Translations under genes and position numbers: made by a program | NCBI GenBank assembly: GCA_017881265.1 | Contig: JADGRA010000047.1 | Span: forward strand, 54,793 to 118,792 | Source: Myxococcaceae bacterium | GTDB taxonomy: Bacteria > Myxococcota > Myxococcia > Myxococcales > Myxococcaceae | Length of the DNA: 64,000 bases | Direction: 5' to 3' | The notes under the pieces: model-generated | Told to the model about the DNA's origin: nothing | The model's database searches: none | The model's input: the letters and a program-made list of their open reading frames with translations, nothing else | Part shown: in pieces, positions 12,767 to 18,419 of the stretch | Layout of the letters: every line of letters begins with the position of its first letter | How positions within the stretch are numbered: the first letter of the stretch is position 1

Positions 12767-14358
12767 GAGCGCCTCTGGCATGCACGTGTCTGGCGGTGGT
12801 GCTGTCCGGCTGCCCGCAGAAGGCCGAGGCCCCGGCCAAGCCGCTGGTGGGGGGGCTGGGTCGGCGGCTGGTGGCCGGTGCCGGGGCGGACTTGCGCCTG
12901 TCCAGGGACGGCACCTGGGCCACCTTCCTGAAGAGTCCTGTCCGGCCCTCCCTGGAAGGCGTCAATCCGGACAGCATCAACCCCAAGGCGGCGGTCGGGG
13001 AATTGCTGGCCGTCAATCTCGGCACCGGCGAGGCGCGGAGCCTGGCCCCCCGCGTCCCCAACAAGCCCGGCGCGGCTCTCCTCAGCCCGGACGGCAAGTG
13101 GCTTCTCTTCCTCACCGACTTTGAGTTGGCAACCGGCACCGGGACGCTGAGGACGCAGCGGCTGGACGCCCCCGGCCCGCCCGAGACGCGCGGGGCGGCG
13201 GTCAGCTTCGTCACCGTCAGCCCGGACGGGCGCTTCTTCGCCTTCGTCGACGCGGGCGTCCTGAAGCTGGCGACGCTGGAGCCGGGGAGTACGGCCCGCA
13301 GCGTGGCGGGGGACGTCTCCACCGCCAAGTTTGCCCTCGGTGGCAGCCGGCTGCTGGCCCTGCGCCGGGCCTCGGCCGGTGGTGCCCTGCTGCAGGTGCG
13401 CACCGAGGGGGGCGCGGCCGGCAAGCTGGCCGAGCGGGTGGCGGACTATGAATTGTCCCCCGACGGACGGCACCTGGCCTTCACCGAAGCCAGTCCGGTG
13501 GCGCGCGACGTGTGGGACCTCTTCGTGACGTCACTGGACGGCGCGCCAGCGGTGAAGGCGGCCAGCGGCGTCGGGCTGTATGGCTTCTCCCCCGACAGCC
13601 GCTGGCTCGGCCGCATTGAAGGCAAGCGCAACGCGCTGGGACGGGTGGTGGTGGGGGCGCTGCAGGTGGGCCCCGCCAGCGGCGCTGACGCCCACCCGGT
13701 GGGCAGCAAGGTGGGCCGCTTCGGCTTCGCGCCGGACGGGACGGCCGTCTGGGCGCTGGACGGCTACAACGAGCAGCACGACCGGGGGACGCTGCTGGTG
13801 GCCGACCTCCCGGCCGGCAAGCTGCGCACGCTGACGGAGAGGGCGCACACCGGGGAGTGGGGCAAGGACGGCCGCTTCCTCGCCTTCAACGTGGAAGTCA
13901 TCCAGCCGCTGCCGAGCATGGACCTCTACCTCTACGTCCGGGGCGAGGAGCAGGCCTTCCGCGTCAAAGAGGGGGTGTACGGCTTCGGCATTGTGGCCGG
14001 GGACGTGCTGCTGTTTCGCAGCGAATGCCTGCGCCAGTCCCAGCGCGACCAGCCGCGGGCCTGCTGGCTGAGCGAACTCGACCTCTCCAAGCCCCACGAG
14101 GCCCCCAAGCAGGTGCTGGAGGGCATCTACAGCTTCAAGGCCTCGGAGACGGGAGAGCGCCTACTGGTGTCCTACGCGCGGCTGGACTCCGACACCTATG
14201 ACACGGCCGTCTACAACCGGCGCACCGGCGAGCGGAAGACGCTGGACACCTTCACCCTGCTGCCCGCCCTCTTCGTCGACCCGGCGGGCAAGCGCGTGGT
14301 GTACCTCGTCTCGGAGAAGGACCGCTCGGGCCTGTACCTGTGTGACCAGGGGCCGTGA
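12763..14358 (+). CDS. Lipoprotein with TolB/WD40-like beta-propeller
   Basis: A 531-residue lipoprotein (signal peptide with VVLSGC lipobox, Cys near residue 18). The mature part is a chain of about six or seven blades with the TolB/PD40 pattern: [65 protein letters not shown], '[13 protein letters not shown]'. It starts on an ATGA overlap with trmFO, so it is translated from the same mRNA, though no functional link to tRNA modification is apparent. Only 39 nt separate it from xerC. No function assignable. Confidence 0.8.
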
Positions 14359-14361
14359 AAT

Positions 14362-14390
14362 TTGGGCGAAGGCCCCGGCTGCCCTAGCGT
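14362..14390 (+). promoter_or_regulatory. Possible promoter for xerC (near-leaderless)
   Basis: TTGGGC (14362-14367), 17-nt spacer, TAGCGT (14385-14390). Transcription would start at about 14397, right at the GTG at 14398. The same TAGNNT hexamer recurs before other genes in this window. Confidence 0.35.
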
Positions 14391-14397
14391 AGCCAGC

Positions 14398-15297
14398 GTG
14401 CCTGTGTCTTCCGACTCCCTCCTCGCCGACTTCCGGAAGGCGCTGCTGCGCCGGGGCGCCTCGGTGCACACCGTGCGCAACTACCTGCGCGACGTCGCGG
14501 CCTTCGCCAAGTACCTGGACGGCCTGGGCCAGGGGCTGCTGGAGGCGACGCACGGCAGCGTGCGCGGGTGGCTGGGCGTGCTGGCGGTCGACCACCAGCC
14601 GCGCAGCCGGGCGCGTGCGCTGGCCTCGGTGAAGGCCTTCTACCGGCAGCTGGTGCGCACCGGGCAGCTGACGGCCAGCCCAGCCGGCAGCATGCGCGGG
14701 CCGAAGCTGCCCGTCACCCTGCCCAAATTTCTCCCCGTCGACGAGGCCTTCGCGCTGGTGGAACAGCCGGGGGAGGCGACGCTTGTGGCACTACGGGACA
14801 CGGCGCTTCTGGAAGTCCTGTACGGGGCCGGCCTCCGGGTGAGCGAGGCATGCGGGCTGTCCCTGGACGACGTCGACTTGCCGGAGCGGGTGCTGCGCGT
14901 TCTGGGCAAGGGCAAGAAGGAGCGGCTTTGCCCGCTGCACCCGGGCGCCGCGGAGGCGCTGCGGCAGTGGCTTTTGCGGCGGGGCGAGCTGCTGGCCAAG
15001 CGCCGGCGTGGGCAGGACGCCCGCGCGGTGTTTCTCAACGTCCGCGGCGGCCGGCTGACGCCCCGCAGCGTGGCCCGGCACCTGGACGCCTACGCGCGCG
15101 CCGCCGGGCTGCAGCGCCACGTCAGTCCGCACGCCTTGCGGCACAGCTACGCCACCCACCTGCTGGCCGGGGGCGCGGACGTGCGCAGCATTCAGGAATT
15201 GCTGGGGCACGCCAGCCTCTCCACCACCCAGCGCTACACCCACGTCGGGGTCGAGCTGCTGCAGGCGGTGTATGACAAGGCCCATCCGCACGCCTGA
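14398..15297 (+). CDS. xerC: Tyrosine recombinase XerC
   Basis: A 299-residue site-specific recombinase that resolves chromosome dimers at dif with XerD. The N-terminal SAM-like domain spans about residues 1-90. The catalytic core has the Arg in YGAGLRVSEACGL, the Lys in GKGKKERLCP, His-x-x-Arg in SPHALRHSYATHLL, the His in LLGHASLSTTQ and the nucleophile Tyr in QRYTH. I prefer GTG 14398 to the TTG at 14362 because the extra 12 residues are not family-like and because of the promoter-like element just upstream. xerC followed by hslVU is a widespread bacterial gene order; here a release-factor-like gene is inserted between them. Confidence 0.94.
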   Translation: MPVSSDSLLADFRKALLRRGASVHTVRNYLRDVAAFAKYLDGLGQGLLEATHGSVRGWLGVLAVDHQPRSRARALASVKAFYRQLVRTGQLTASPAGSMRGPKLPVTLPKFLPVDEAFALVEQPGEATLVALRDTALLEVLYGAGLRVSEACGLSLDDVDLPERVLRVLGKGKKERLCPLHPGAAEALRQWLLRRGELLAKRRRGQDARAVFLNVRGGRLTPRSVARHLDAYARAAGLQRHVSPHALRHSYATHLLAGGADVRSIQELLGHASLSTTQRYTHVGVELLQAVYDKAHPHA

Positions 15298-15457
15298 GGG
15301 CGGTGCGAGCGGCGCGTTTCATCCAGAAGGACGGCGAAGGGCAGATGGCCCGGAAGCGGAGCGCCACAGCAGCGTCACCCGAACGGGACCTCACCGAGCT
15401 GGCGCGCGCTGGCGCCGCTCCGAGGCGCGGCGGGAGGTGGAGCCCCGCACCGCCGTC

Positions 15458-16491
15458 ATGCTGCCGCGGCTCGGGGCTCCCGCCGGCCGTCGGCGCCTGG
15501 ACCGCCGCGCGCTGCCGACCGAAGCCACCGAGCTCCGAGACCGCGCGGACAGGGTGGCACTGGCCCTCGAGGGGCGACGCTGGCCGAGCGCCGGGCAGAC
15601 GTCCTCACCCAGACGCAGGTCCCGGACTTCTGGGATGACCCCGAACGTGCCTCGCACTTGCTCCGGGCGTTCCGCGCCATCGAGGCGCAGCTGCAGGCCC
15701 TGGACCACCTGACCCGGACTTGCGAGACGGCCCAGCGGCTGGTGCGCGAGTCCAAGGGAGAGGCGCGGCTGGCAAAGGCGGCCCGCGCGGTGGAGGTGGC
15801 TGCGCGGGAGGTCGAGCTGGCCGAGGCCCGGGTGGTGGCCGGGGGCCGGCAGGGTGACGAGGCGTTGCTTCACCTGACGCTCTTCGGCGCGGAGGACGAG
15901 TCCCACCAGCGCTGGCTGGACACGTTGGTGTCGATGTACCGCGGCTGGGCCGAGCGGCGCGATTACGGCGTCTCCGTCCTCGCTGAGAGTGACCGGCCCT
16001 CGGGCGCTCTGCTGCAGCTGAGTGGTCCGGGCGTTCTGGGCTTTCTCGCCGCCGAGGAAGGCATCCACCGCTGTCACGACGAGGCGAGCCGCGTCTCGGC
16101 TCGGGTCCGGGTGCACCGCTGGCCCCTCGAGTCAGGTGATGCGAAAGGCATGCGGGTGAAGGCGCGGTCGGTACGTCGGCGGGCGGGCAGGCACGTCGCC
16201 CGCATCACCAGCGAGCTGCACGCGATGGACGACGGGTCGGGGCGGGAGGTGCAGCTGCATGGGGGTGGGACGCCCGAGGAGATGCGCTCGCTGGCCTCAG
16301 TGCTGCTGCCGGCGGTGCCGGCGGGGACGGACGCACGGCAATACTTTCTCGCCCGTGCGGCGCGCGTCGAGGACCCTCGTACCGGAGCGGCCACGCCGCG
16401 GGTGAAGGACGTCCTTCGGGGGGAACTCGAACTCTTCATCGCGTCGTGGTTTGCGCGTGCCCGGGCCGGGGCCGCGTCGCCGGAGGCTTGA
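15458..16491 (+). pseudogene. Release factor 2-like gene lacking GGQ, apparently frameshifted
   Basis: The frame open to 16491 encodes a clear peptide chain release factor 2 relative. It contains PDFWDDPERA (15622-15651), the RF2 N-terminal hallmark; AEDESHQRWLDTLVSMYRGWAERRDYGV, the first core block, in normal RF2 a GGTEAQDWAEML...RMYLRWAERR-type sequence; EEGIHRC; and the C-terminal block DPRTGAATPRVKDVLRGELELFIASW. The segment that should hold the stop-codon reading SPF loop and the catalytic GGQ is instead an unrelated-looking basic stretch, so it cannot hydrolyse peptidyl-tRNA as usual. No ATG/GTG lies in this frame before FWDDPERA; the only start is TTG 15658. The matching upstream coil (ELRDRADRVALALEG) is in another frame, joinable by one extra G in the run at 15570-15574. 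So it is either a pseudogene, a -1 frameshift, or a sequence error. No CTTTGA frameshift site, as in normal prfB, is visible. Confidence 0.7.
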
Positions 16492-16536
16492 CGGAGGGAT
16501 GGAAGGTCAGCGGCGGGCCTGTTACATGGCCCAGCC

Positions 16537-17064
16537 ATGCTGCATGGAACGACCATCCTCTGCGTGCGCCGGGACGGGAAGGTGGCGCTCGGCGGCGACG
16601 GGCAGGTGACGCTGGACAAGACGGTGATGAAGGCCACCGCGCGGAAAGTCCGCCGGCTGGGCGACGGTTCCGTGTTGGCCGGCTTCGCCGGCGGCACCGC
16701 CGACGCGTTCTCCCTCTTCGAGCGCTTTGAAGCCAAGCTGAAGGAGCACCGCAAAAACCTCACCCGGGCGTGCGTCGAGCTGGCCAAGGACTGGCGCACC
16801 GACCGGGCGCTTCGGCGACTGGAGGCGCTGCTCCTGGTGGCGGATATGGAGAAGACGTTCCTCTTGTCCGGGAGCGGCGACGTCATCGAGCCGGATGGCG
16901 GTGCCGCGGCGGTGGGAAGCGGCGGCCCGTACGCGCTGGCCGCGGCGCAGGCGCTGCTCGCCCACTCAGCGCTTCCGGCGCGCGCGGTGGCGGAGGCCGC
17001 GCTGCGGATTGCGGGCGACATCTGCATCTACACCAACGACCAGCTGAGTTTCGAGGAGCTATGA
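16537..17064 (+). CDS. hslV: ATP-dependent protease subunit HslV
   Basis: The 175-residue peptidase of the HslVU (ClpQY) proteasome-like complex. After removal of MLHG the N-terminal Thr5 ([20 protein letters not shown]) is the nucleophile. The conserved [20 protein letters not shown] and [16 protein letters not shown] blocks are intact. It ends in an ATGA overlap with hslU, the normal hslV-hslU arrangement. The ATG at 16537 gives the standard short propeptide. Confidence 0.97.
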
Positions 17065-18419
17065 GCAACCTGACGCCACGCGAAATCGTCAGCGAGCTCG
17101 ACCGCTACATCATCGGCCAGACGGCGGCCAAGCGCGCAGTCGCCATCGCCCTGCGGAACCGCTGGCGCCGGCAGCAAGTCCACACCGACCTGCGGGACGA
17201 AATCACCCCCAAAAACATCATCCTCATTGGCCCCACCGGCGTCGGCAAGACGGAGATTGCGCGGCGCCTGGCCCGGCTGGCCCAGGCCCCCTTCGTCAAG
17301 GTGGAGGCGAGCAAGTTTACCGAGGTGGGCTACGTCGGCCGTGACGTCGAGTCGATGGTGCGAGACCTGGTGGAGGCCTCGCTCGCCCTGGTGCGCGAGG
17401 AGGAGGAAGCCAAGGTGCGCATACGCGCTGCCGAGCGGGCCGAGGACCGGCTGGTGGTCCTGCTGCAGGGCGGAGGCACACGGGCCCCCGGCGTGGGCTT
17501 TTCGCCCCCTCCGGCGGCGCGCATGACCGACGCCGAGCGTGAGAAGCTGCGCGCACAGCTGCGGGCCGGGACGCTGGATGACCGCGTGGTGGAGCTGGAC
17601 GTGCAGGACGTTCCAGCCGGCGTCCTCCGGGGCTTCTCCGGCCCCGGCCTCGACGAGATGGGGGCCAACCTGGCGGAGATGTTCAAGTCCATTCCCGGGA
17701 TGCAGCGGACGCGCCGGCGCACGGTGGGCGTGGGGGAGGCCCTGCGGCTGCTCGAGCGCGAGGAGTCGGAACGCCTGGTGGACCAGGACCGCGTCACCCG
17801 CGAGGCGCTCCAGCGCGCCGAGACGAGCGGCATCATCTTCATCGACGAAATTGACAAAATCGCCAGTCGCGAGGGCGCTCACATGGGCGGTCCGGACGTG
17901 TCGCGGGAAGGCGTTCAGCGCGACATCCTCCCCATTGTCGAAGGCAGCACCGTCACCACCAAGTACGGACAGGTGAAGACGGACCACGTCCTGTTCATCG
18001 CCGCAGGCGCCTTCCACGTGAGCAAGCCCTCGGACCTGATTCCGGAGCTGCAGGGGCGCTTCCCCATCCGGGTGGAGCTCGAGCCGCTGGGCCGGGCGGA
18101 CCTGGTGAGAATTCTCCGGGAGCCGAAGAATTCTCTTCTGCGCCAGTACACCGCGCTGCTGGAGACGGAAGGGCTGCGGCTGCACTTCACCGATGACGCC
18201 ATCGAGGAGCTGGCCGCGGTGGCCCAGTCGGTGAACGAGCGGACGCAGAACATCGGCGCCCGGCGTCTGCACACCGTGCTGGAGCGCCTCTTGGACGAGG
18301 TGTCCTTCTCGGCCAGCGACCCGGGTGCGCCCCGCGACGAGCAGGTGGATGCGGCCTACGTGCGCCGCCGGCTGGCCGCCGTCGTCGAGGACGAGGACCT
18401 TTCGCGCTATATCCTCTAG
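17061..18419 (+). CDS. hslU: ATP-dependent protease ATPase subunit HslU
   Basis: A 452-residue AAA+ unfoldase that feeds Hsl[18 protein letters not shown] is at the N-terminus. Walker A GPTGVGKT is at residues 57-64. [20 protein letters not shown] is the conserved pore and I-domain boundary, followed by the variable I domain. Walker B is [15 protein letters not shown]-terminal sensor-2/D2 domain ends in [10 protein letters not shown], the C-terminal tail type that docks into HslV. The start overlaps the hslV stop. The I domain keeps the usual length. Confidence 0.97.

Follow-up and report, generated by a model that had tools for sequence, protein, structure and literature searches.

What is the release-factor-like gene that lies between xerC and hslV in the window, the 64,000-nucleotide stretch of a Myxococcaceae contig analysed here, and how did it come to lack the motifs that define a release factor? 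The original prediction took the locus, 15345-16491, for a relative of release factor 2 (RF2) that had lost its SPF stop-codon loop and catalytic GGQ, and offered either a decaying RF2 paralogue or a non-hydrolytic factor, possibly with frameshift control of its own. We find that the frame is almost certainly the cut-off C-terminal domain of a fusion between a two-AAA+ Clp/Hsp100 ATPase and an RF2-like module, which is intact in most of the genomes of the family searched. The window copy is a broken member of this fusion family whose ATPase part has been lost, and it is likely a dead remnant. To the whole of our favoured account, namely this identity, the dead remnant and a mechanism in which the intact protein is a ribosome-docked Clp machine, we assign a probability of roughly 0.6.

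The RF2-like blocks noticed earlier, PDFWDDPERA, MYRGWAERRDYGV and DPRTGAATPRVKDVLRGELELFI, indeed share one frame, which is open for 305 codons (15574-16491). This frame matches the Pfam PCRF model at 43.6 bits against a cut-off of 24, with RF-1 (PF00472) unmatched at E<=1, and it scores 70.6 bits with the NCBIfam prfB model (TIGR00020), under the cut-off of 370. Elsewhere the genome holds three RF-1-domain genes with open frames of 365, 363 and 150 codons, and the 363-codon gene (at C2) is the RF2 that we used as the genome's own comparison. In the alignment with it, six residues are missing where SPF should stand and other sequence takes the place of the GGQ loop, just as had been described. 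The predicted model of the domain retains the RF2 fold across 311 aligned residues, domain 1 included.

The source of this domain emerges from its relatives. A protein search returned 15 proteins, the window's own among them; in P0004, P0010 and P0011 Clp-type domains precede PCRF, and P0014 is an ordinary RF2. The full gene recovered by genome searches codes for about 940 residues, with a first (D1) and a second (D2) AAA+ domain, a ClpB_D2-small domain and then, as the final third, the RF2-like domain of about 340 residues. When only the RF2-like region of the Myxococcus xanthus protein was used as the query, 121 clusters were obtained, and AAA+ domains were present in all 120 listed. The M. 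xanthus fusion scores 58.7 bits with PCRF, 81.7 bits with prfB and at best 32.1 bits with the RF1 models. Across 155 aligned full-length family proteins, the Walker A and Walker B motifs of D2 are always intact, and an [I/L/M/V]GF loop (IGF/LGF/MGF/VGF) of the last AAA+ domain, present in 151, aligns with the AGF loop of Staphylococcus aureus ClpC. The GF loop of ClpC is its contact with ClpP. A Trp stands near the expected pore-loop place of D2 in 153. Neither SPF nor a GGQ at the catalytic place occurs in any of the 155; a GGQ string is found elsewhere in three, always within LTMT(V/L)LGGQGEGG. The ratio of nonsynonymous to synonymous substitutions (dN/dS) is 0.26 in the RF2-like half, about twice the 0.14 of the AAA+ half, and the family is under purifying selection. 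On these alignments, the family has intact copies and its lack of SPF and GGQ is fixed. Since these two defining motifs were sought and are absent, we do not class the family, as judged from its sequences, as a release factor. The odd loss of catalytic motifs in the window is explained in turn, because it is fixed in another protein family, of which a broken copy lies here. In the databases, family members are hidden under ATPase, PCRF or ClpB/ClpC names ('AAA family ATPase', 'PCRF domain-containing protein', 'Chaperone ClpB' and 'ClpC').

How the window copy is broken becomes apparent when the full-length sisters P0134 (928 aa) and P0120 (935 aa) are compared with it by tblastn, as they align in three pieces. 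The first is matched by P0120 at 15360-15425 in frame 0, and more weakly by residues 12-22 of P0134 (E 0.06). The second, in frame 2, is matched by P0134 residues 577-646 from 15416 to about 15571 (49% identity, E 6e-15), and a search of the window's own genome with a full-length sister likewise placed P0134 residues 573-629 at this linker piece (53% identity). The third continues in frame 1 from 15574. Thus, the ATG at 15345 is the N-terminus of the AAA+ fusion, with about 550 codons missing before the RF2-like part. The features of the copy are as follows.

The copy comprises the lines below, all on the forward strand (+).
15345..15416, +: remnant 1, the N-terminus of the AAA+ fusion, from ATG 15345, MARKR...ERDLTELARAG, frame 0 (P0120 residues 7-28, 64% identity, E 6e-5).
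15413..15421, +: deletion junction with a frame change, at which about 550 codons (both AAA+ domains) are gone relative to the full-length sisters; P0134 matches jump from residue 22 to 577.
15416..15572, +: remnant 2, the post-AAA+ linker and first helix of the RF2-like domain, frame 2 (tblastn with P0134).
15570..15580, +: second frame change, from frame 2 to frame 1, between neighbouring tblastn pieces.
15574..16491, +: remnant 3, the RF2-like domain (PCRF, domain 2/4 core, reduced domain 3), open to a TGA; 69% identity to P0134.
15658..16491, +: 277-aa open reading frame starting with TTG, the first ATG/GTG/TTG after the frame's upstream stop; this is database entry P0001.
16078..16084, +: site of the missing SPF segment (six-residue gap against the genome's own RF2).
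16159..16200, +: site of the GGQ loop, with RSVRRRAGRHVA in its place (alignment with the genome's own RF2).
16372..16440, +: conserved C-terminal block DPRTGAATPRVKDVLRGELELFI, with DPRTG in 151 of 155 family proteins.

Residues 23-576 of P0134, which span both AAA+ domains, have no counterpart within the interval by tblastn, and elsewhere in the 4.4-Mb assembly the ATPase part has no close match, the only matches to the full-length sister being frames of 25-33% identity that belong to other Clp-type ATPases or RF2. Relative to the sisters, about 1.66 kb is missing. As the sister pieces lie in different frames, the one-base frame change that had been suspected near 15570-15574 from the N-terminal coil is real in this sequence. 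The window copy is therefore broken twice, by an internal deletion and by a frame change, and shows against intact orthologues both the disrupted frame and the lost domains of a pseudogene.

Intact copies are widespread among myxobacteria. A scan of named genomes yielded 49 loci, 47 of them labelled myxobacterial (M. xanthus, at L125:4054-6873, Corallococcus, Archangium, Hyalangium, Pyxidicoccus and others), with one distant chloroflexotal locus (28% identity, a frame of 362 codons). The gene is also carried by a sequence labelled Comamonas sp. KCTC 72670 (L128, BNCN01000002.1), which adjoins M. xanthus in the tree; its label or sample is probably wrong. The organism-named clusters among the 120 listed are myxobacterial, save one 'Deltaproteobacteria bacterium' and one 'Comamonas'. 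Of the first 48 loci, 40 have the gene in one frame of 900 codons or more and seven run into the end of the contig; at the remaining one (L111, SECN01000190.1) the fusion frame begins late, away from the contig end, and has 856 codons. With a profile of the RF2-like domain, 87 of 195 Myxococcota genomes gave strong matches (E<1e-45), comprising 86 of the 96 genomes of the window's family (the window's own counted) and one of the 99 others; the weaker matches listed have E>1e-24 and frames mostly of RF2 size. The distant query P0015 likewise matched 87 of 195 at E<=1e-6 and left the same ten family members unmatched. An open frame of at least 934 codons is present in 77 of the 87 matched genomes; in the ten that remain, the frame runs into a contig end in seven, the three others being the window, G146 and G121 (856 codons of the fusion). 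Since the gene runs through one frame of 900 codons or more in 77 of the 87 matched genomes and at 40 of the 48 named loci, frameshift control finds no support, and we reject a frameshift-controlled gene. The only other frame change that we read splits the fusion at the AAA+/RF2-like linker in a two-contig genome of the same family (L168, G146:C1:3001000-3006500), a place other than that in the window; it reflects either an error in sequencing or another broken copy. A viral origin was rejected, as IMG/VR gave no confirmed relatives at the patterns used, and so was a plasmid home, as none of 1635 matched plasmid records covers at least 80% of P0010; the 20 plasmid matches listed are confined to its first third, the AAA+ part.

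What might the intact protein do? We tentatively favour a Clp machine brought to ribosomes by its RF2-like modules, because D2 is intact, its loop is ClpC-like and the RF2 fold is devoid of the motifs for termination. The RF2-like module would dock on ribosomes or ribosome-bound partners and, as its fold lacks the motifs for codon reading and hydrolysis, could do so without causing termination. The D2 ring, with its intact ATPase residues and ClpC-like loop, would act as an ATP-driven unfoldase that may serve ClpP, and the ATPase ring would remodel the docked partners or feed them to ClpP; stalled, damaged or hibernating ribosomes are the conceivable targets. A more specific picture, which we offer as somewhat more speculative still, is a myxobacterial ring whose subunits each end in an RF2-shaped, hydrolysis-dead and codon-blind module; on a stalled or damaged ribosome this module would enter the A site, or else the stalk/RF3 docking region, and pass nascent chains or ribosomal proteins on to ClpP, which would make the protein, by analogy, a single-polypeptide bacterial counterpart of Vms1-Cdc48. 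The non-hydrolytic factor suggested for this locus is thus plausible for the intact fusion. A link between release factors and unfoldases is known mainly from eukaryotic ribosome quality control. If the proposal is true, bacterial translation termination or rescue would be tied directly to energy-driven protein unfolding, and the presence of the gene in the genetically tractable M. xanthus makes the question directly testable.

Several observations weigh against this account. As the stop-codon and catalytic motifs are gone, the case for ribosome contact is carried by the fold and the C-terminal block; Foldseek TM-scores of the domain to RF2/RF1 chains range from 0.33 to 0.62 by query length, with free RF2 the best; and no conserved operon partner points to translation in 25 fusion loci. 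The Walker B motif of D1 is altered, the aligned D being R in 150 of the 155 proteins and the aligned E being D in 149, and pore-loop motifs of the ClpA/ClpC type are not recognisable in either AAA+ domain; therefore, substrates may be threaded in an atypical way. The docking of ClpP could also be hindered by the roughly 340 residues that follow the D2 ring as the C-terminal domain. Lastly, the RF2-like domain of the window is without clear excess decay at conserved sites across 40 non-redundant rows, which keeps both a surviving stand-alone function and an assembly fault in consideration.

The figures behind the last point bear on the age of the break, which looks recent. The window retains all 34 invariant positions and has changes at six of 76 near-invariant ones, the fifth-highest of 40, as compared to seven of 75 and seven of 77 in the intact sisters P0134 and P0120. 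In a 64-row tree its end branch is 0.35 and that of P0134, the nearest row at 69% identity, is 0.27, the pairing of the two being weakly supported (90/34). The fraction of G and C at third codon positions (GC3) is 0.86 in the window frame (0.90 in the first half and 0.82 in the second) against 0.90-0.92 in TolB, xerC, hslV and argD, a slight hint of relaxation. One could hold that the open reading frame is a working stand-alone RF2-like protein separated from its ATPase, given its 305 open codons, its full set of family-invariant residues and a GC3 that is still coding-like. We consider this improbable: the earliest start, the TTG at 15658, has no visible Shine-Dalgarno sequence and lies within helix three (67-103) of the domain model, so that the first two helices would be lost; the GC3 of the second half is below that of TolB, xerC, hslV and argD; and the other frames of fewer than 900 codons in the 87 genomes are explained by a contig end (seven), the 856-codon fusion of G121 and, in G146, an ATPase in the adjoining frame. 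An RF2-like protein of 271 aa, P0003, on a 2282-bp contig, begins near the window's TTG and is changed at three of 37 invariant positions; it is possibly another detached copy. Equally improbable, to our mind, is that faults of assembly or base calling made the lesions and that the real gene is intact. A single-base frame change is of a size typical of sequencing errors, and the lack of clear excess decay would fit; nevertheless, a base-call error would not cleanly remove about 1.66 kb from within a 119-kb contig, and the ATPase part has no close match elsewhere in the assembly. Nor would a corrected read give a full GGQ-containing RF2, as none of the 155 full-length relatives has GGQ there.

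That the locus is a prfB paralogue which decayed and lost its GGQ would account for the PCRF match and the RF2 fold, but we give it hardly any credence and reject it, as the N-terminus and linker that remain are those of the AAA+ fusion, GGQ is absent at this place in 155 of 155 full-length relatives, and elsewhere the genome has, besides an intact RF2, another RF-1-domain gene of release-factor size. Of the decaying paralogue, then, the decay stands, in the form of a deletion and a frame change, and the descent from an RF2 that lost GGQ does not. A more serious competitor, though still an unlikely one, concerns the intact fusion: its RF2-like domain might no longer touch ribosomes and be a borrowed scaffold through which the protein oligomerises or binds some other protein as a substrate of the Clp motor. 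The family-wide loss of both SPF and GGQ, the higher dN/dS of the RF2-like half and the varied accessory domains borne by Clp proteins are all consistent with this. The RF2 fold that the model retains over 311 residues, including domain 1, and the strong conservation of the C-terminal block nevertheless exceed the needs of a generic scaffold, and we continue to prefer a Clp machine recruited to ribosomes.

The window copy lies inside the 119-kb contig of an 81-contig, 4.4-Mb assembly. Its neighbours are these.

14362..15297, +: left neighbour, a xerC-type tyrosine recombinase (recomb_XerC 308.5 bits, cut-off 335; PRK00283 282.4 bits, passing the cut-off of 279).
16537..17064, +: right neighbour, hslV (PRK05456 HslV 278.5 bits, cut-off 137).

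We reject an RNA element in 14200-17200, as Rfam gave no matches there at gathering score. No RF2-like match was found at 29 other hslV loci with about 1.5 kb of flank. A conserved xerC-RF-hslV locus was rejected, as the match is absent at all 19 other loci with both xerC and hslV; at the ten more hslV loci xerC falls outside the fetched flank. The xerC-hslV gap of the 19 measures 64-222 bp in nine and 513-1170 bp in ten (L064, L070, L072, L073, L075, L077, L079, L082, L083 and L086). Conversely, neither xerC nor hslV occurs in 20 fusion loci of 11.6-16 kb. The position between the two genes is peculiar to the window's genome among those compared. A conserved operon was likewise rejected for the fusion, as the most shared non-overlapping neighbour, an upstream gene whose M. 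xanthus copy looks like an HNH-type protein, recurs in just 10 of 25 fusion loci, neighbour clusters having been identified where more than five loci share them.

The RF2-like domain also has more distant kin. P0136, P0139 and P0015, when aligned, lack the GGQ loop and have a gap of six or seven residues at SPF, as the fusion does, and they are nearer to its domain than to the three RF2s compared (for P0136, E 1e-25 against 3e-10). One protein of this set is named from a Planctomycetaceae bacterium and one is labelled 'peptide chain release factor 2'. Because they share these losses, the dead branch of RF2 may be older than the myxobacterial fusion or may have spread beyond it. P0141 joins a Maf-like N-terminus to a GGQ-less RF2-like tail; as P0140 carries this tail with no Maf-like part, P0141 is likely a chimeric contig.

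We found no description of a Clp-release factor fusion in the open-access literature searched; a further paper, on the sporulation Clp/Hsp100 chaperone of M. xanthus, MXAN_4832, could concern it. The intact relatives follow the class I Clp/Hsp100 pattern of two AAA+ domains and then ClpB_D2-small, which the window copy lacks. The fusion differs from ClpC and ClpA, of the same class, in having no Clp N-domain (its alignment begins at ClpA residue 171-172), no long middle domain (one continuous stretch aligns with ClpA), an altered D1 Walker B and the RF2-like C-terminal domain. Three fusion proteins fell below the curated Clp equivalogs, with 286-312 bits for ClpB (cut-off 1232) and 280-309 for ClpA (cut-off 993). 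We place the family with the Clp/Hsp100 ATPases, as a new variant among them. Another additional class of Clp unfoldase, ClpI of the Actinomycetota, has recently been named (PMC10149685), and the part of that source drawn on here mentions no release-factor domain for it. M. xanthus DK1622 is credited with eight clpA/B/C copies, with mutants cited in clpB (MXAN_5092) and clpC (MXAN_4832), by PMC11423568; chloramphenicol raises several of its Clp ATPase genes (PMC6617876), among which the fusion may or may not be. To RF2 itself the fusion is akin in its PCRF match and fold, and unlike it in having neither SPF nor GGQ, a shrunken domain 3 and a place behind an ATPase. Dom34 and baeRF-1 offer a precedent for a release-factor-like protein without the catalytic residue: both have lost the catalytic Gln and are proposed to act on the ribosome without hydrolysis, though their fold is unrelated and the passages used of PMC6514570 mention no AAA+ fusion. 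The closest conceptual parallel is offered by the Vms1-like release-factor-fold proteins of eukaryotic ribosome quality control, whose binding to the AAA+ ATPase Cdc48 couples a release-factor module to an AAA+ motor (PMC6514570); as Vms1 has the aeRF-1 superfamily fold and uses a binding motif instead of a fusion, the likeness would be one of functional analogy only.
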